The notes under the pieces were generated by a model. That model made no database searches. It was not told the DNA's origin and saw only the letters and a list, made by a program, of their open reading frames with translations. Shown here piece by piece: positions 3 through 55,251 of a stretch of 64,000 bases of DNA. The position numbers were made by a program, and so were the translations under genes. The stretch is from positions 1 through 64,000 of the IMG/VR virus record IMGVR_UViG_3300010883_000003; one strand, 5' to 3'. This stretch comes from a virus. Within the stretch, counting starts at the first letter, position 1. Each line of letters starts with the position of its first letter.

Positions 3-3000
3 GCAGACGGTATAGAGGACTTCACATATAACGGATCCTCAACTGCCACTGTGAAGGTTGATTTATTTGATAACGCTGGTATAGTGAAGACGTCTAACGG
101 TCTCGCGCTAAACATAAGTGATGTTTCAGACTCTATCAGTACAACACCAGCTGCTGATGATCTGTTGTTTATTTACGATACATCACTACCAACTACTAGA
201 TTCACAAAGAAGATAACTGTTGGTAATCTTATGGCGGCAGCTTCATCTTTATCCACACTCGGTAATCCGCTGGCTCTTAGAGACGGTCTTGGAAATACCA
301 GCTACAACAACTCCACTGGAGTTACTGTTGATATTGATACAGCTACAAACGGTGGCTTAAATATAATCGGCGGCGCCGGATCTGGTGGCGCGGTATATGT
401 TGATCCTAATACGGCTACAGCAACAACAACGCTTAACGCTGCAAATGATTACGTTTTAATTTACGACCAAACCGCAAACGCCACTAGAAAAATTACGCCT
501 CAAAAGTTCGCGGACTTACCTTCCAGTTATTCTCTTAGTCCTGGTACGGGTTTAACGTACTCTGTAGGCTCTGCGTTTAACGCCGGTTCAAATTCTACGC
601 TAGGTATCAATACCGCTGTAGTACCAAGACTTGCAGTAGCAAATACATTTTCTGGTGACAATACATTTTCAGGAAAAAACACATTCGGTGTTTCTACAAC
701 AGCTGGGTTAACAGGATCTCTACAGGAAGTGTCATCCGGAGTTCCTTATCTAATTGGTGGAAGTAACGTATCTATTACTACTGGATCTACCGGTCAAATA
801 ACAATAGGTGCATCTTTAGCTGCTGGTGGAAACTTGACCGCGGGTACTGGAATATCTACGTTCACGTATGACGGTTCAGGAAACGCTACTGTCTCCGTAA
901 ACGCTACATCTCTTTCAACTGTAGCAGCTAATAGAAGTAACTATCTGATTTCAGCGGAAAGCGGTAATCTATCTAATATAACAAAGACAACTATAGGCTC
1001 CGTCGCGGATATCGTTGACAGAACCGCAATAGTTAATGAGGGTTCTGGGATAAGCATCACTTTTTCTGGTAATTCTAATCCGGCAACAATCGCCGCAAAA
1101 GTTGACGGGTCTACAATAAGACTTAATAGCTCCAATCAGATATCAGCAGTAACTCCCAGCGGTGGTTCCCCCGGTGGTGGTAACAGTGATAAATCAGCTT
1201 CCTACCTAGTGTTGACGGCAACAGGCTCTTTAGATAACGAGAGAGTCTTTACAGAGGGTACGGGTTTACTGAAAGTCGACTCCGGCGCAGGTTCAGCTTA
1301 CACTGTTTTAATTGATAATTCCATAGTCGCGACCTTAACAGGATCTCAATTCTCTGGAAACGTTGGTATAACAGGATCTTTAGGCGTAGAATCTAGCGCT
1401 GTATTTAAAACAGGTCTGACTGGCTCACTACAGATGCTTCCCGATGGCTTAACCCCATATATTATAGGTACTGGTAGTATAAGTGTCACCACGTCTTCTT
1501 CTGGGCAACTGGTGGTATCTTCTTCTGCTTCAGCCGGCGGCGGCAGTAGTGGTCTTAGTTCTATACAACAATCTGGCGGAAGTTCGTTCAGTAGTGTAAC
1601 AACGTTAATATTTACTGGTAGTACAGTTTCCGGTGGATCTGGGACCGTTACTGTAACTCCTGTTATTGGAGCCGCTGAAGACTCTTCATATACCGACGGC
1701 TTATTTACAGATTTCTCTTACACTACACCAATAGGAACAGCTGTGGACAGATTTAACGAGGTTCTAAAAGGGTTAGCTCCCAGCGCGGCGCCAGCATTAG
1801 ATGATATGAATTGTAACGACTCTGGCACTAGCGCTAAGATGTCGTTTGGAAATTCACAATCTATCTCTGGTTATACTAACGTCTTACCATCTACTTTAAC
1901 TCCTGCTAGTTCATTATCTAGCGTAGATATTAATGGATCATATTCATCTGCAATATCAGGAAATGATGTAAGAACCGCTTGCTTTGCTGGAAGCACAGTC
2001 ATTGATGGAATTCTAAATGCCGACGTATCAGCAGACAGCCCCAATTACGCTGCCGACGCTTTTGGTAACGGTAACCAAGGCACTCTTGAATTGTTCGTAA
2101 ATAATAACTCTACGGCAGTACACTCCACAAACTTGTCTTCATTCGGTTCAGGAACGAGCAGTAACGCTAGCGGTTCTGGTTTCGTGTTATCAGCAGTAAC
2201 AAACGGCTCATTCAGTGACGGGTCAGCGTTTAGTACGTTTAAGCACCGTACCGGTACTTATACTATAGCGGTAGCTAATCAACAGACAGGATGGAACTAC
2301 GCTAGGGTTGTACATACAATAGGTAGCACCAGCACCACCACAAACTACGTGGAATGGGTAAACGATCCAAATGCGAATGCTCTATCTGCCGACACATCAG
2401 TTATGGACAGTTTATCAATGACTGGTACAAAGCAGTTATCTGGTGTCACATATAATACTGCAGGTACAGCAGAATATCGTGTACGTGTTCTTAACGCATA
2501 CAAGAATGTATATTCAGCAAATAACATAACATTTAATGGCACAAATTGTGCTATATCTTCTCAAGCATTTCCGTCCATAGATTACGCATCAGGAGAAGAT
2601 GAGACTAAGCTCTTGCACTTGACAGGATCTGTTACGATAAATTCTGACCCACTATTAAACGGATCCATAACAGCATCCGCGAACGTACCAGCTCCCTTGA
2701 AGTCAGACTTAACTTCTGCCGGCTCACAATCAGTGGCAGGAATACTTTTATACAATCTATCAGATAGTGCAACCACAACATCGGAGCCGTTTAGAGGGGA
2801 AAGCTATAGAAGGGTATCTGGTAGCTACAATAATCAAGCGGCAGTAACTGCCGCTGGTGCAGTATGGAATTCTTCCACCAGCTTAATGACTGTTGACGGA
2901 TTACTTTTTTATAACAGTGCGTTGAGGTCTCCACGTCAAGGAACCGTGTCTGGAGACTTTAGGAATACAGCTGACGGCGGGTCCATTACAAACGGTCCAG

Positions 3001-3416
3001 CGAGCAATGTAAACTATTCCTCTATTGCTTCTGGGATGAGAACGTTTTATAGGTACTTTAGAAACACATCCGGGGGTTCTAAGACGAATTTCGCGTTGAC
3101 CTTAAACGGTTCCGGTACAATAGTGAATCAAGGGTCATCTTTATCTTCTTCGAACATTCATGTTTTGGCAAAGTTACCAACAACATCCGCTAGTTTTACG
3201 ACTGGGTGGATGGACACTGCAGTGGCGTTTGCTACAGGACAAACAGGAGATGGTGCTGGGTGTCTAAATGGTTCCCTGGATTCTTCTTTAAACGCGACAA
3301 ACAATATTACATTCGGTACACAGTCAGCTGGTGCAAACGAATATATAGTTGTTAAAATAGAGGCCGACGCTAGCTGGACTGGTAACATATCACAAATTAG
3401 CGTTTCATGGAGTTGA
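3..3416 (+). CDS. Fibre-type virion protein, 5' end outside window
   Basis: A large Ser/Thr/Gly-rich, low-charge protein of the kind found in phage fibres and head or tail appendages. The first available start is GTG at 51, but the frame is open to base 3, and the extra residues (DGIEDFTYNGSSTATV) match an internal segment (GTGISTFTYDGSGNATV), so the true start lies upstream and the gene is 5' partial. About residues 205-260 and 380-490 hold two copies of a module with the signature SG-N--ITGSL---GLTGSL, and the second copy recurs in the next gene. The last 500 residues are beta-rich without a recognisable enzyme motif. It is followed after 3 nt by the next structural gene. A role in adsorption or decoration is inferred from composition and context. 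Confidence 0.7.
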   Translation, partial: ADGIEDFTYNGSSTATVKVDLFDNAGIVKTSNGLALNISDVSDSISTTPAADDLLFIYDTSLPTTRFTKKITVGNLMAAASSLSTLGNPLALRDGLGNTSYNNSTGVTVDIDTATNGGLNIIGGAGSGGAVYVDPNTATATTTLNAANDYVLIYDQTANATRKITPQKFADLPSSYSLSPGTGLTYSVGSAFNAGSNSTLGINTAVVPRLAVANTFSGDNTFSGKNTFGVSTTAGLTGSLQEVSSGVPYLIGGSNVSITTGSTGQITIGASLAAGGNLTAGTGISTFTYDGSGNATVSVNATSLSTVAANRSNYLISAESGNLSNITKTTIGSVADIVDRTAIVNEGSGISITFSGNSNPATIAAKVDGSTIRLNSSNQISAVTPSGGSPGGGNSDKSASYLVLTATGSLDNERVFTEGTGLLKVDSGAGSAYTVLIDNSIVATLTGSQFSGNVGITGSLGVESSAVFKTGLTGSLQMLPDGLTPYIIGTGSISVTTSSSGQLVVSSSASAGGGSSGLSSIQQSGGSSFSSVTTLIFTGSTVSGGSGTVTVTPVIGAAEDSSYTDGLFTDFSYTTPIGTAVDRFNEVLKGLAPSAAPALDDMNCNDSGTSAKMSFGNSQSISGYTNVLPSTLTPASSLSSVDINGSYSSAISGNDVRTACFAGSTVIDGILNADVSADSPNYAADAFGNGNQGTLELFVNNNSTAVHSTNLSSFGSGTSSNASGSGFVLSAVTNGSFSDGSAFSTFKHRTGTYTIAVANQQTGWNYARVVHTIGSTSTTTNYVEWVNDPNANALSADTSVMDSLSMTGTKQLSGVTYNTAGTAEYRVRVLNAYKNVYSANNITFNGTNCAISSQAFPSIDYASGEDETKLLHLTGSVTINSDPLLNGSITASANVPAPLKSDLTSAGSQSVAGILLYNLSDSATTTSEPFRGESYRRVSGSYNNQAAVTAAGAVWNSSTSLMTVDGLLFYNSALRSPRQGTVSGDFRNTADGGSITNGPASNVNYSSIASGMRTFYRYFRNTSGGSKTNFALTLNGSGTIVNQGSSLSSSNIHVLAKLPTTSASFTTGWMDTAVAFATGQTGDGAGCLNGSLDSSLNATNNITFGTQSAGANEYIVVKIEADASWTGNISQISVSWS
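1198..1520 (+). repeat. Module shared with 4062-4390 (fibre genes)
   Basis: A protein-level repeat of about 108 residues running from YLVLTATGSL through NVGITGSLG to the following beta segment. It matches the stretch encoded at about 4062-4390 in the neighbouring gene (YLVLSATGSL ... NVGITGSFG). The DNA has diverged, so this is an old duplication or module exchange between neighbours. Confidence 0.65.
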
Positions 3417-48552: not shown

Positions 48553-49041
48553 ATGCCAGAAACACTATCAGTTACCGACATGCTGCCGAATAAGTTCGAG
48601 CCGAAAAGAAAATTTCGGTGGGTTTTCGCTATCGAAGGAATTGACGCTTTCTTAATTAAGACCGCTGCACGTCCGGTTATGAATACCGCCGAGATTGAAA
48701 TTCCATTTATGAACTCAACTCGGTATATTGCCGGTAAAACGAAATTTGATGCAATTTCGGTTACCTTACACGATCCAATTGCTCCCTCGGGCGCTCAACA
48801 GGTTATGGAGTGGGTACGAACTCATTACGAATCTGTTTCTGGTCGTGGTGGTTATGCCGATTTTTATAAGAGAGATTGCCAGCTCAAGATGCTTGACCCA
48901 GTGGGTACGGTTGTAGAGCTATGGGATATGAAAGGGTGTTTCTTAACATCTGCCGGATTCGGTGATCTAGATTATGGTTCGGAAGATCCAGCAGAGATTG
49001 CGTTGACGATTAGATTTGATAATTGCGTTTTGCAATACTGA
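48553..49041 (+). CDS. 19: Tail tube protein (gp19)
   Basis: A 162-aa protein of typical gp19 length. Characteristic segments: FEPKRKFRWVFAIEGIDAF (17-35), IEIPFMNSTRYIAGKTKFD (48-66), ISVTLHDPIAPSG and WVRTHYESVSGRGGYA. Hexameric rings stack inside the sheath to form the DNA conduit, with length set by the tape measure. Placement directly after the sheath genes is the T4 order. AAGGAG precedes the ATG; a hairpin and strong terminator follow. Confidence 0.95.
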   Translation: MPETLSVTDMLPNKFEPKRKFRWVFAIEGIDAFLIKTAARPVMNTAEIEIPFMNSTRYIAGKTKFDAISVTLHDPIAPSGAQQVMEWVRTHYESVSGRGGYADFYKRDCQLKMLDPVGTVVELWDMKGCFLTSAGFGDLDYGSEDPAEIALTIRFDNCVLQY

Positions 49042-49079: not shown

Positions 49080-49106
49080 AAGTCCTCCTTTACGGAGGAC
49101 TTTTTT
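49080..49106 (+). terminator. Rho-independent terminator after tail tube gene
   Basis: AAGTCCTCC-TTTAC-GGAGGACTT, a perfect 9-bp stem ending in six T. Confidence 0.93.
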
Positions 49107-49125: not shown

Positions 49126-49194
49126 CGTATACACGGCGTATTATTTTTTTTAAGATAGTAATAATCGTGTTATTAAATAAATGGAGAGCACTAA

Positions 49195-50043
49195 ATGTCA
49201 ACTGATACCCCGACTAATGAAAGAAGTGATATATTTGGTTCAATGAGAGACCAAATTCCCACTCGTAACGTAATCAAGGATGATTTTGGTTTCGAGATTC
49301 CTGTTGAAACCGTGCCGCTGCCTTCTGGCGGAAAGTGTTACGATGAAGAACATCCTCTTCATAATAAAGACACGGTCGAAATCCGAGCCATGACAGCTAG
49401 AGAAGAAGACATCTTAACATCGAAAGCGCTGATTAAAAAAGGTACGGTCATTAGCCACCTTATAAAGTCTTGTATGATCGATAAACGTGTTGATCCTGAC
49501 TCTTTACTTGCTGGTGATAGAAATGCGCTGATGATTGCACTACGTGTTACAGGTTACGGCGCTGAGTATAAAGTGGAGATAGATTGTCCCGCATGTAGTG
49601 AGAGATCGAAGCATTCATTTAATCTTGGTGAGCTACCTGTTAAAAGACTAGACATTGACCCTGTGGTTATGGGTTCAAACGTTTTTGAGACAGATCTCCC
49701 AACAACGAAGGCTAAAGTTAGATTCAAGCTATTAACAGGTAAAGACGAACAAGAAATTATGGTCGCCGGAGAGCGGCGTAAGAAGCAAGGTCAACGCTCT
49801 GATAACCTCATTACACAGCGTCTTAAGTACTCGTTAGTTTCGGCAAACGGTATTTCTGATAAGACTAAGCTTGATATGATGGCCAGTAATCTCCCAGCAA
49901 GAGACTCTTTATACCTCCGGAAGTATATCGATAAGCACGAACCCGGTATAGAAATGTCTTCATGGATGGACTGTCCTTCATGTCTTGAACATTCGGAGGT
50001 ACGGCTCCCACTGGGTGCCGCGTTTTTTTGGCCTGACGAGTGA
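49195..50043 (+). CDS. 26: Tail assembly chaperone / baseplate protein (gp26-like)
   Basis: A 282-aa protein of the T4 gp26 baseplate family type: VPLPSGGKCYDEEHPL, VEIRAMTAREEDILTSKALI and four cysteines in two pairs (C131-x2-C134 and C260-x2-C263), probably a zinc ribbon. Long-tailed phages place a chaperone with a programmed frameshift just before the tape measure gene. Here the frame ends five codons after a T7 run (50023-50029), and a +1 frame carries on for 85 residues. It likely guides tape measure protein into tail assembly. Family call from pattern; precise T4 equivalence is uncertain. Confidence 0.75.
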   Translation: MSTDTPTNERSDIFGSMRDQIPTRNVIKDDFGFEIPVETVPLPSGGKCYDEEHPLHNKDTVEIRAMTAREEDILTSKALIKKGTVISHLIKSCMIDKRVDPDSLLAGDRNALMIALRVTGYGAEYKVEIDCPACSERSKHSFNLGELPVKRLDIDPVVMGSNVFETDLPTTKAKVRFKLLTGKDEQEIMVAGERRKKQGQRSDNLITQRLKYSLVSANGISDKTKLDMMASNLPARDSLYLRKYIDKHEPGIEMSSWMDCPSCLEHSEVRLPLGAAFFWPDE

Positions 50044-50284
50044 GTCTAAAGAGGTCTATCTAGACCAAATATTTTTATTGATGTATTATATGGGTTTCAC
50101 TTTTGTGGAAGGATATAACATACCAATATGGATAAGATACTGGTTCATCAAGAGATTGAACAAAGAGCTTAAGGGCGCAAAAGACCAAGGCTCAAGGGCA
50201 GCCCACCAAAACGACGCCGAAACTAGGGCGATGATGGGCCGACATAGAGCACAGACTCCGTCAAAACTGCGTAGATTCACATAG
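49985..50284 (+). CDS. Frameshift extension of the tail assembly chaperone
   Basis: An overlapping +1 frame. Its only upstream start is TTG 49985 without a ribosome-binding site; the first ATG is 50081, also without one. The part beyond the T7 run begins GLTSESKEVYLDQIFLLMYY and continues GFTFVEGYNIPIWIRYWFIK, then a polar, basic tail. This is best expressed as a C-terminal extension of the gp26-like protein by ribosomal frameshifting (product about 361 aa), like gpG-GT of lambda. It could instead be a separately translated gene, or the split could reflect a homopolymer error. Confidence 0.6.
   Translation: MNIRRYGSHWVPRFFGLTSESKEVYLDQIFLLMYYMGFTFVEGYNIPIWIRYWFIKRLNKELKGAKDQGSRAAHQNDAETRAMMGRHRAQTPSKLRRFT
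50023..50029 (+). other. T7 slippery site
   Basis: GCG TTT TTT TGG in the upstream frame. A +1 (or -2) slip gives TTT TTT GGC and enters the downstream open frame. A -1 slip meets TGA within three codons. Confidence 0.55.
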
Positions 50285-50305: not shown

Positions 50306-50548
50306 ATGAATGTTAATAAGCAATTTCTAAAAGAGTGTGCGCTGTATATTAGAGGCGAAGTGCCTGAAATAAAGATTAGAGGAAACTCTAAGATCATATC
50401 TTTATTTGCGAATACGTTATCTGAGTCAAGAAGACTTTACCTCGCGCTGCAATCTGGCGAATTGAGCAAGACACTACCATTGCTAGAGAACAAGAGGGCC
50501 GCATCTAAACTTCTCCGAGAGAAGACGGGTTATGTTTGGCCTCTGTGA
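50306..50548 (+). CDS. Small hypothetical protein before tape measure
   Basis: An 80-aa basic helical protein of no recognised family (FLKECALYIRGEVPEIKIRG at 8-27, KLLREKTGYVWPL at the end). AGAGGT precedes the ATG. It lies between the chaperone and the tape measure, so a tail-assembly role is possible. Confidence 0.6.
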   Translation: MNVNKQFLKECALYIRGEVPEIKIRGNSKIISLFANTLSESRRLYLALQSGELSKTLPLLENKRAASKLLREKTGYVWPL

Positions 50549-50578
50549 TTAAATAAGTGGCGTAGTTTCTCGTTTGCC

Positions 50579-50619: not shown

Positions 50620-53600
50620 ATGGCTGATTCAAAAGAACTACAGACACAATTAGGTATAAACCAGCAAATAAATAAAGTGCTGGCTGATCGTGCTAAGCAG
50701 CTCGATGCTATGTCTAAACAAATATCCGGACAGGCACAGCTAGCTAAAGAGCTGTGCGCCGCGATGGACTGTAAGGAGCTTGACGGTCTTGAAGACAGAA
50801 TAGGTTCGATCAACGCATCTCTTTCCGAAGCCGCCGATCAAGCTGGTTTAGCCGGCGCCGGAATGGATAAGATGGCCAGTGACGGGCAGAAAGGTACCGA
50901 TAAGCTCGGCGGCTCGCTTGGTGGTATCCTATCCAAAGTAACACCTATGAAAGGCGCCGCAGTCGGCGCTGGCATGGGCTTCATGAAAGGCTTCAAAGGC
51001 GTCGGTGGAATGCTTAAGATGGTTGCAGGCGGAGTCGCCGGTATAGCATCTGGTGTTGCAAAAGTCGGCATGAGCATTATTGCCATTCCTTTTAAGATTT
51101 TAGGCGGATTTGTCGATGCGGCAGCCGCCGGCTCTGGCGGGGTTGACGCGTTACGTCAAGCAATGGAGAAAGTCCGTGGTGAGTTTGGCGATCTAGCCAC
51201 CGGTGAAGGCAAGGCCTTAGTAGATGGTCTTGATACTATGCGGGGTTCCTCTAGCGCCCTTGCCAAGTCCGGTATGAACCTTGGTCAAGTGTTCGGCTAC
51301 GGCAAAGCTGGCGCGGCAGCCATGCTGGAAGCTGTTTCTGGAATAGCAAAAGCAGCTGGCGCAAACTTCTCCATGATGGGCGCGCAAATCGCGGGCGCAG
51401 CCGACAAAATGGTTATGATGAACAAGGGCCTTGGTATGACCAACGAGGCTCTTGCGGAAATGGCCAGAAGAGCCCATAATACCGGCCAAGATGTGGGTCA
51501 AAATCTAGTTGACATGGGATCCATGGCGATACAGATGGGAAACAAATTTGGCGTCTCTGCTAAGACCATTGGTAAGAATATGTCTGCGCTCATGGAAGAT
51601 GTCGAAAACTTCGGCGGAATGAGTAAGAAAGAATTCGGCGCGACTGCTACATACATGGCTAAGTTAGGTTTAGAAGCTAAAGACCTCCAGGGTGTTATTG
51701 GTAAGTTCGATGATTTCGAGTCTGCTGCCGGATCTGTATCACAGTTAAACCAAGCTTTCGGTATACAGCTTGACACCATGGAAATGATGAATGCCGAGAA
51801 TCCAGCTGAGCGCATCGACATGATGAAAAACGCGTTCCATGAAGCTGGCAAGTCAGTCGAAGATATGACCCGCCAAGAAAAGAAGCTCATGGCTGAGCAA
51901 ATGGGTCTGTCTGTATCCGCGATGGAGAATGCTCTAGCAACAGAAAATATGGGCACCTCTTATGAAGATATGGAAGGCGCTGCCTCAGAAGCTGAAGCTA
52001 ATAAGATGAGTGAGAACGAGGTTATGCTCGAACTCGCAAAATCCGTCGAAAAAATGGTCAAAAGTGGTCAGAAGGTCGATGGATTCTTCGACTCGTTTAG
52101 GAAAGGATTCGCAAGAGGATTCAAGCAGAATAAAGAATATATGGAATCGATTCGAGCGATCCGGGAGTCGCTAAAGGTCGTAGGTAAATTTGGTAGAGAA
52201 GTCGGTAAGATATTCGCTGAGATGATGGGTACAATGGGCCTATTCAAATCTATTAAGAAGATATTCGATCCAGCAGCATTAGGAGAGATGCTTACAGGCG
52301 ATGGCGGTCTCTTAGGAATGTTGAAAAAGTTCCAAAAATCGACCGCAGAAGGTGGCGATTATAGCTTAGCTGATATGCTAAAAGATATGTTCGCTAGAGT
52401 TAAGAAATATCTTACAACTGGTGCCGTAAAAGAAGGTGGTGACGGTTTCGCTGTGTGGATGGAGAAAATGATCCGGTTCATGGGTGATGGTCTTGCTTCT
52501 GCACTTCCCTTTATCGTAGAAAAGATAACTGAAACGATTCAATTTATAGCCGATGTAATCCGTGACCCATCGAAGCTGTCATCGATTGGTAGCGCCGGAC
52601 AAACTGGTATAGGCGGCGCGCTAGCTGACTCTTTTTCTAAGATTGGCGAAGCGCTTGCACCAGTTCTGCCGCTACTTTGGGATGCGTTTAAAGACCTATT
52701 CTCTGCCTTATACGAAAAAATCGAACCGTTCTTGATGTTCGGACTTAAGCGTATCATCCTATTTGCTGTAGTGAAAGCAGTCGTGTCCGCGCTGGCTAAC
52801 GCCGCCGCGGGAGCAGCAATCGGCGGCGCCGCGAAGCTCCTCGCAAAGGGTCTAGGCATGAAGATGGGTAAGGGTATGGACGAAACCGCCGGCAAGCAGA
52901 TGCAGAAGAGCGGCGGCGGATTCTTTAAGGGCTTAAAAAGTATGCTCCAATCTATTGGCAAGATCAAGCCCACCACCGTTGCCAAAGCAGGATTTAATTT
53001 GCTGATTTTGGCCGCCTTCGCGGCTGGATCAATGGTCGCATTTGCACTAGGTATTAGGGCTGCTTACGAAATCTTAAAATCTGTTTCATGGGAAGGTCTA
53101 GCGAAGGTTTTTGTTGTATTAGCAATCTCTATTTTGGCAATGATACCGTTTGTGTTGGCTGCGCTAATGATGGAACCAACAACCATCACCACGGCCGGTT
53201 TAATGATGCTTATCGGCGCCACCTTCTTCGCCATCTCTGTCGTCGCATTTGCGGGTGCTATTAGAATAGCGTACGAGATTCTAAAGCCCGTGGCCTGGTC
53301 GGCTTTTGCATCCATACTCGGGATGGTTGGTGTTGCCATTCTGGCTACTATCGCTCTTGCAGTTGTTGGATTAGCTTTTGCGAGCGTAGCCCCTGCGGTA
53401 CCAGCTATGATTGTTGGTCTAGTCGCAGCAGCCCTCTTATTCACTGCAGGAATAGTAATATACGCTAAAGCCATTGCCATAGCTTATGATATACTAAAAT
53501 CTGTACCGCTGGCAGAGTTCGCGGAACAAATAAAAACAGTAGGGCTGGCTCTTGCAGCCACTGTCGCGTTTGGGGTGATCGGAGGTACTCTTGCAGCGTT

Positions 53601-55251
53601 CTTCCCTCTTGTTCCGATGATGGTTATTGGCCTAGTCGCAGCAGGTACCTTGTTCACAGCCGGGGTCTTCATCTTTGGTGAAGCAATTATGATGTCTCTC
53701 CCTATGTTTAAAAAGATTGCCCAAAATGAACAGGCTGTTACTGCAGGTATGTCCGCACTAGATACAGTCGTCAACGCCCTGGGCAAAATGGGTTTATTGG
53801 CTGCGGTATTTACTGCTTTTGGACCGTTCGTCGGTATTCTTAAGCGGGGGTTTGCCAAAGCCGCTGACTTCTTTGTAAGCTCGGCTGGTCATATAGAGGG
53901 AATGATCGGCGCTGTTCTAAAGATCCCCATGTCAAACCCTGAAGACGTTGCAAAACGAATAGAGATTGTTGCACTAATAGCTGAAGCGATGCAAAGTCTA
54001 GCCGGTATCGGTCTAGAAGCTGCCAAAATGGGTATTGTTTCTGAGCTAATGGGCGGGACAGATATGCCTACGATGTTTAAATCAATGGGAGACTTTCTCG
54101 GTAAGATAGCGAACATCATGATTGTGATGATATCGCTGATCGTTTCTCTTGCATCTGGCTTGAGCGAAAGTGACATGAAGGGTGTGGAAGTCATTGCGAC
54201 AGTTCTACAAGCTATCGCCGCCCTCGCCTCCGCACTGTTCTCCCCGCTTGAAGCTGTGTCAAAAATGTCATCAGGTATGTTCGGTCCTAGTGTCTCGGAA
54301 GCTATGGGTGCTGTTGTCGGAGGTATCACTCAGCTCATGCTCGCAATCTATATCTTCTTACCAGCGCTGATTACTAAAATAATCGAAATTGCGAACGGTA
54401 TTCCAGGAGATCCGGCAGCGCTAAAACCAAGGATGGAAGTAATCGCAATAGCGCTAGGAGCCGTTGGGAGTTTTGCTAAAGCCATCGGTGACGTGGCTAA
54501 GCTCATGCCGGAAGAGGGCGGCGGCTTCTTCGGTGGCGGAGCTAGTATGGCTGAGCGGCTCGCCGATATGAGCAAAATTATCAGATCGGTTGTCGAGTCA
54601 GTAAAGAAGCATATGCCACCTCTTATAAAGGATCTCCTAAAAATAGAGATCCCGGGAGATCCAGCCACTGCCAAAGCAAAAATTGAAATCATTGGATCTG
54701 CCATGACGGCCATCAGTCAATTTGCGGATGTCATCTCAAAGCTAGCTGGTATGGCCGTCCCAGATGGCGCATCAATGGGAAGCTTAATTCGAAATATCGT
54801 TACCGGTGTTAAATCTGCTTTAACTGGTGACGACGGTCTGCAAGGATTGTTTACAGCACTGGGCGGCGTAACTCTTGATGAGTCCGCGCTGGCACCCCTT
54901 GATGCAGCGAATACAGCTTTAGAAAAGTTAACGAGCTTCGGTGCCAATATTATTAAGATGCAAGAGAAAATGGCGGAAGTCCCGGGCGGCGGTCTAGCCA
55001 CAGCCGTGACGTCGATGGTTACAGAGGCGAAACTAGCCGTTGAAGCGATGAACTCCCTCGGCGAACTAGACGCCACAGTAGCGCTTGATAACTTTGCTTC
55101 CGCCATCGGAACGGGTCAGGGAGAATTTACTATCACCAATGAACCAATTAATATTACGATCAATATGAATGTCACTATGGACGCGAACGAGGTCGGTAAG
55201 GTGCTGGTTAATAAATCAGTAATGACAACGCCTCTAACAACTGCGGAGTAA
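50620..55251 (+). CDS. Tape measure protein (gp29-like position)
   Basis: A 1543-aa protein. Residues 1-75 are a coiled coil. A Gly/Met/Ala/Lys-rich region (about 100-330) follows, then helices with FDSFRKGFARGFKQNKEYME (488-507). A hydrophobic block at about 788-1045 contains four roughly 70-residue repeats, each with a membrane-type helix followed by A-AY-ILK-V. The C-terminus is amphipathic and ends in a beta strand (INITINMNVTMDANEV). Size, hydrophobic block and position after the chaperone identify the tape measure, which fixes tail length and may later enter the host membrane. It is far longer than T4 gp29 (590 aa). GGGAAACGAG precedes the ATG. Confidence 0.88.
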   Translation: MADSKELQTQLGINQQINKVLADRAKQLDAMSKQISGQAQLAKELCAAMDCKELDGLEDRIGSINASLSEAADQAGLAGAGMDKMASDGQKGTDKLGGSLGGILSKVTPMKGAAVGAGMGFMKGFKGVGGMLKMVAGGVAGIASGVAKVGMSIIAIPFKILGGFVDAAAAGSGGVDALRQAMEKVRGEFGDLATGEGKALVDGLDTMRGSSSALAKSGMNLGQVFGYGKAGAAAMLEAVSGIAKAAGANFSMMGAQIAGAADKMVMMNKGLGMTNEALAEMARRAHNTGQDVGQNLVDMGSMAIQMGNKFGVSAKTIGKNMSALMEDVENFGGMSKKEFGATATYMAKLGLEAKDLQGVIGKFDDFESAAGSVSQLNQAFGIQLDTMEMMNAENPAERIDMMKNAFHEAGKSVEDMTRQEKKLMAEQMGLSVSAMENALATENMGTSYEDMEGAASEAEANKMSENEVMLELAKSVEKMVKSGQKVDGFFDSFRKGFARGFKQNKEYMESIRAIRESLKVVGKFGREVGKIFAEMMGTMGLFKSIKKIFDPAALGEMLTGDGGLLGMLKKFQKSTAEGGDYSLADMLKDMFARVKKYLTTGAVKEGGDGFAVWMEKMIRFMGDGLASALPFIVEKITETIQFIADVIRDPSKLSSIGSAGQTGIGGALADSFSKIGEALAPVLPLLWDAFKDLFSALYEKIEPFLMFGLKRIILFAVVKAVVSALANAAAGAAIGGAAKLLAKGLGMKMGKGMDETAGKQMQKSGGGFFKGLKSMLQSIGKIKPTTVAKAGFNLLILAAFAAGSMVAFALGIRAAYEILKSVSWEGLAKVFVVLAISILAMIPFVLAALMMEPTTITTAGLMMLIGATFFAISVVAFAGAIRIAYEILKPVAWSAFASILGMVGVAILATIALAVVGLAFASVAPAVPAMIVGLVAAALLFTAGIVIYAKAIAIAYDILKSVPLAEFAEQIKTVGLALAATVAFGVIGGTLAAFFPLVPMMVIGLVAAGTLFTAGVFIFGEAIMMSLPMFKKIAQNEQAVTAGMSALDTVVNALGKMGLLAAVFTAFGPFVGILKRGFAKAADFFVSSAGHIEGMIGAVLKIPMSNPEDVAKRIEIVALIAEAMQSLAGIGLEAAKMGIVSELMGGTDMPTMFKSMGDFLGKIANIMIVMISLIVSLASGLSESDMKGVEVIATVLQAIAALASALFSPLEAVSKMSSGMFGPSVSEAMGAVVGGITQLMLAIYIFLPALITKIIEIANGIPGDPAALKPRMEVIAIALGAVGSFAKAIGDVAKLMPEEGGGFFGGGASMAERLADMSKIIRSVVESVKKHMPPLIKDLLKIEIPGDPATAKAKIEIIGSAMTAISQFADVISKLAGMAVPDGASMGSLIRNIVTGVKSALTGDDGLQGLFTALGGVTLDESALAPLDAANTALEKLTSFGANIIKMQEKMAEVPGGGLATAVTSMVTEAKLAVEAMNSLGELDATVALDNFASAIGTGQGEFTITNEPINITINMNVTMDANEVGKVLVNKSVMTTPLTTAE
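52981..53760 (+). repeat. Four degenerate ~210-bp repeats in tape measure gene
   Basis: Protein-level repeats. AYEILKSVSWEGLAKV (residue 815), AYEILKPVAWSAFASI (884), AYDILKSVPLAEFAEQ (954) and a worn fourth (IMMSLPMFKKIAQNEQ, near 1028) are spaced about 70 residues apart, each preceded by a hydrophobic helix. Confidence 0.75.

Follow-up and report, generated by a model that had tools for sequence, protein, structure and literature searches.

The tail assembly chaperone (TAC) gene of this virus very probably produces both a short and a frameshifted long chaperone, by a +1 slip of the ribosome at NUU_UGG. The window analysed here comprises 64,000 nucleotides of a virus record that is 116,688 bases long. 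Comparison of its sequence with those of relatives supported a programmed +1 frameshift in the chaperone gene located before the tape measure. The relevant features, with coordinates in the window, are:

48553..49041, + strand, tail tube protein (gp19-like), the upstream neighbour (phrog_4542, 1e-30)
49183..49188, + strand, GGAGAG, ribosome-binding site of TAC-N, 6 nt before the ATG (direct reading)
49195..50043, + strand, TAC-N, putative gp26-like tail assembly chaperone of 282 aa with two CxxC zinc-ribbon-like pairs (PF12322, phrog_150, AF2)
49995..50000, + strand, GGAGGT, internal Shine-Dalgarno-like element (synonymous-conservation peak, locus counts, z values)
50023..50029, + strand, TTTTTTT run containing the slip site (read directly; kept in the close clade)
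50026..50031, + strand, proposed slip site with P-site TTT (50026-50028) and A-site TGG, UUU to UUU re-pairing in +1 (NTT TGG in 99/99 loci)
50030..50284, + strand, TAC-C, +1-frame extension of 84 aa plus stop (dN/dS, conserved motif, helical model)
50306..50548, + strand, 80-aa ORF with its own ribosome-binding site, between TAC-C and the tape measure (reading; similar ORF in several relatives)
50620..55251, + strand, tape-measure candidate of 1543 aa (size, position, hydrophobic stretches)

According to the proposed mechanism, most ribosomes would stop at 50041-50043 and yield TAC-N. A minority would stall when tRNA-Phe occupies the P site on UUU (50026-50028) and the A site holds UGG. These ribosomes would move ahead by one base, to the overlapping UUU, and go on translating in +1. 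The fused product, TAC-NC, would count 362 aa, with 84 codons past the slip and a junction peptide spanning ...GAAFFGLTSESK. By analogy with lambda gpG/gpGT, the role of TAC-N would be to coat the tape measure protein, and that of TAC-C to bring in tail tube subunits. Gene order, the conserved slip site, selection on the extension and, in many relatives, the want of a usable start for TAC-C were read from the sequences, and from there we infer the actual shift, its efficiency and the chaperone function.

The chaperone gene and its neighbours

The 3' end of the TAC-N reading frame reads GCG TTT TTT TGG CCT GAC GAG TGA. As described in a preliminary description of this DNA, seven T are present at 50023-50029 and the gp26-like frame ends five codons past this run. 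The +1 frame stays open as far as 50284; by base composition alone, 84 open codons have a probability of about 0.004. TAC-N belongs to the gp26 family, with a match to PF12322 (T4_baseplate) at 3e-17 and 63.4 bits, against a curated cut-off of 24.5. It also matched phrog_150 (baseplate hub) at 9e-20, and its AF2 model had a mean pLDDT of 89.

The gene has the position of a G/GT-type chaperone, with the tube gene upstream and the tape-measure candidate downstream, and is therefore best read as a tail assembly chaperone with a short and a frameshifted long form. Family profile searches gave no confident match for the tape-measure candidate. Foldseek searches of the PDB with TAC-N and TAC-C gave no significant match, which counts against our explanation, so that the putative chaperone role is assigned from family membership, position and analogy.

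The extension likewise agrees with a G/GT-type chaperone, in that the 3' end holds a conserved coding stretch in a different frame. Its dN/dS was 0.07-0.18 where dS was measurable and a third-position excess was found in the +1 frame, which indicates, at the level of sequence comparison, that TAC-C is under purifying selection. TAC-C carries the conserved motif E..F.L.YY.G...E.YNLPv..R.WFi.R and is predicted to be helical, with three main helices in the model and pLDDT above 90 over residues 11-50. An HMM search with TAC-C alone found no family.

Several other elements were observed near the gene. No family match was found for the 80-aa ORF at 50306-50548; similar small ORFs occur in L002, L008, L011, L012, L028 and other relatives. 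The motif TTAAATAA(A/G)TG is present at 49173-49183 and 50549-50559, upstream of the TAC gene and also of the tape measure gene, and is possibly a T4-like late promoter. WTAAATAARTG had only these two copies in 64 kb (0.36 expected), and 5 of 100 shuffles reached two. Between the tube and TAC genes, at 49080-49102, lies a perfect hairpin, AAGTCCTCC-TTTAC-GGAGGACTT, followed by T; it appears terminator-like by eye and was absent from the pattern-scan list.

Conservation of the slip site

Relatives comprised 39 IMG/VR loci (L001-L039), to which a profile scan added 80 loci. The extension was in the +1 frame in L001-L028 wherever the contig reached far enough, and in every testable locus of the profile scan. 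The non-redundant +1 set contained 99 loci, in which the slip site read TTT TTT TGG (78 loci), TTT CTT TGG (11) or TTC TTT TGG (10). Hence, all P-site and A-site codons were NTT TGG, with TTT TGG in 88 loci and CTT TGG in 11, and the zero-frame stop followed 4-7 codons beyond the P site. Leu at the P site was always encoded by CTT, though CTT makes up 28% of the Leu codons in these genes. Since the T run was broken in 21 of the 99 loci, leaving only three or four T, the sequences indicate that TTT TGG or CTT TGG, and not the seven-T run, is the essential element.

Codon usage in 14 genes pointed to the same place. Among 59 degenerate columns with an invariant amino acid, only F278 (TTT) and P280 (CCT), which flank W279, were also codon-invariant. 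The invariance of P280 is explained by dual coding, as read from the alignment, because its T also serves as the middle base of the Leu codon in +1; that of F278 is not explained in this way.

The same junction was present in isolate genomes, e.g. Microcystis phage Mel-JY01, and Flavobacterium phage immuto likewise has this site. Where isolates lack TGG, their +1 site mostly consisted of UUU and a following pyrimidine (GXN1, SP-15, LuckySocke, BRock, LR756508). The site TTC TTT CGT of Streptococcus phage GXN1 (L044, end of CDS 2483-3232) resembles the influenza PA-X +1 cassette UCC UUU CGU. Rhodothermus phage RM378 also carries TTT TTT TGG, with an extension not recognisably of the same family. 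A frameshift was marked in none of the annotated isolate records that were examined.

More distant relatives (L029-L039) carried a related extension in the -1 frame, at T TTT TTC. The shift direction, as judged from these sequences, has therefore changed within the chaperone family. A canonical X XXY YYZ heptamer was found in L030-L033, L037 and L132-L134. A -1-frame extension was also observed in L043, L132-L134 and L049, mostly at T TTT TTC, which is the reading of the L049 site. Assignment of L029, L038 and L039 to +1 by ORF length proved to be a high-GC artefact, their conserved extension being in the -1 frame.

Direction and nature of the shift

The slip had previously been described as +1 or -2, with 85 further coding-like residues up to 50284; the +1 direction stood, whereas the -2 direction did not, and the codons number 84. 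The direction follows from the CTT TGG and TTC TTT TGG variants, which re-pair by +1 but not by -2. Re-pairing in +1 is perfect for UUU_U, prfB-like for CUU_U, and works in all 99 loci. In bacteria, UUU_Ynn is reported to undergo +1 shifting with particular ease (PMC5009743); the sites of prfB are CUU_U and UUU_U, with a poly-T slippery version in some prfB genes (PMC12421855). A -2 frameshift, in which tRNA-Phe would use the seven-T run of the window to re-pair two bases back, is very unlikely, for it mispairs at TTC TTT TGG (10 loci) and at TTT CTT TGG (11 loci). The window site does not qualify as a -1 slippery heptamer (X XXY YYZ) either, as its extension lies in +1 whereas the -1 frame closes early. 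Homopolymer runs can favour slippage of RNA polymerase, and the window has such a run of seven T. We nevertheless regard transcriptional slippage as highly improbable, given that the arrangement is kept in the 21 loci with runs of three or four T and that every locus has NTT in the P site.

That TAC-C is instead an independent gene with a start codon of its own, aided by the internal GGAGGT, seems equally improbable. The +1 frame in the window does contain TTG at 49985 and GTG at 50015, and there is a strong SD-like element upstream, but the distance from this element to the GTG is 15 nt. Moreover, 49 of the 99 loci have no ATG, GTG or TTG ahead of the slip within the open +1 frame, in 28 a stop closes the +1 frame no more than 12 nt ahead of the P site, and the commonest first ATG is codon 17, within the conserved core. 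Homopolymers are also prone to sequencing error and the junction sits in seven T, and such an error had been named as the main alternative. The probability of a sequencing error or a recent inactivating frameshift is now negligible. The same seven-T junction occurs in L001, another metagenome contig with a 100% identical protein, and the arrangement recurs in the 99 non-redundant loci and in isolates, which excludes a homopolymer error; purifying selection on the extension argues against both. Comparative evidence from the 99 loci thus favours a programmed +1 shift, and sustains the earlier reading of a chaperone with a frameshift extension before the tape measure.

Upstream and downstream elements

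A second peak of synonymous conservation, at codons 264-271, coincides with GGAGGT. In the window, 26 nt separate GGAGG from the P-site codon, and among the loci that have it GGAGGT mostly precedes the slip site by 18-27 nt. A 9-mer pairing with the anti-SD at -7 kcal/mol or better was present between -36 and -8 in 82 of the 99 loci, versus 3.4% of comparable windows from the rest of the gene. Recoding simulations that kept amino acids and codon usage gave -5.0, compared to -9.3 observed (z -16.7 for all loci, -9.3 for representatives below 60% identity and -6.5 below 50%); the loci are related, and hence these z values overstate independence. The 3' end of the best 9-mer was near -24 or -18, two main positions that are two codons apart and use different protein residues, which argues for selection on the nucleotides. 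Relatives with a -1 shift mostly had no SD-like element in this region.

These sequence patterns suggest that GGAGGT is under selection, and it may be a stimulator of the frameshift. Known SD-like stimulators have a spacing of 3 nt in prfB and about 10 nt in dnaX. With somewhat less than even confidence, we propose that GGAGGT stimulates the +1 shift at a distance outside these spacings, and that this is widespread in uncultivated T4-like phages; it would then be a cis-signal of a new type for forward slippage. If true, a functional distal element would challenge the view that such stimulators need close spacing.

Conserved RNA structure was not found, which counts against our explanation: RNAalifold gave 4 pairs without covariation at -1.5 kcal/mol. 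Downstream folds compared with shuffles were inconsistent across loci (z -0.2 in the window, -0.3 in L022, -2.1 in L002, -2.6 in L012). Rfam returned nothing above threshold and no tRNA was found in the window.

Comparison with known systems

The TACs of T4-like phages are reportedly the subject of a 2022 paper by Vladimirov, Gautam and Davidson (Virology 566:9-15), as its title and citation indicate. Neither a +1 shift at NUU_UGG in this family nor the distal SD-like element was found in the literature searched, in which the 2022 paper figured by citation only; the distal element is apparently new. The polyT frameshift signals in TAC-N genes of T4-like phages are cited as -1 in PMC12846349. 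By that citation, the TACs of the 2022 paper are the same gene type with polyT signals, whereas the shift described here is +1.

Similar to our site, prfB (RF2) combines a P-site CUU_U or UUU_U slip with an upstream SD-like element, and NUU followed by U was found in all 99 loci. In contrast to prfB, the A site holds UGG rather than a UGA stop, and the SD-like element lies mostly 18-27 nt rather than 3 nt upstream. Both the missing stop codon and the spacing count against our explanation. The tail chaperone of the archaeal myovirus HSTV-2, of an unrelated host domain, is thought to use +1 according to PMC5009743. The loci together form a large natural collection of +1 frameshift sites whose A-site codon is a sense codon. 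They also suggest an annotation rule, TTT or CTT TGG near the end of a gp26-like gene, for a protein missed in the annotated isolate records examined.

The principle of chaperone frameshifting is already known, and +1 is the rarer, forward direction. As in lambda gpG/gpGT (Xu, Hendrix & Duda 2004), one gene directly upstream of the tape measure region would give a short and an extended product, near its 3' end, with a small C-terminal domain. However, lambda shifts -1 rather than +1 at NUU_UGG, and the family here is PF12322, not gpG. T4 gp26 and gp51 are both PF12322, encoded by two separate genes without a frameshift. The TAC-C profile gave no success against the single T4 gp51 (hhalign) and a weak colinear match to the gp51 family alignment (E 1.3e-4 at full length, 0.003 for the C-terminus alone). 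This weak kinship with the gp51 C-terminus counts against our explanation. The colinear alignment of the C-terminal addition of gp51 with TAC-C is nonetheless consistent with T4 encoding its two chaperone forms as separate genes, as the 2022 title also implies. The earlier remark that the pair is normally separate in T4-like phages applies to T4 itself, whereas other T4-like groups shift, according to the citing literature. One chaperone family would thus have used +1, -1 and, in T4, two genes, probably with the same two-product outcome.
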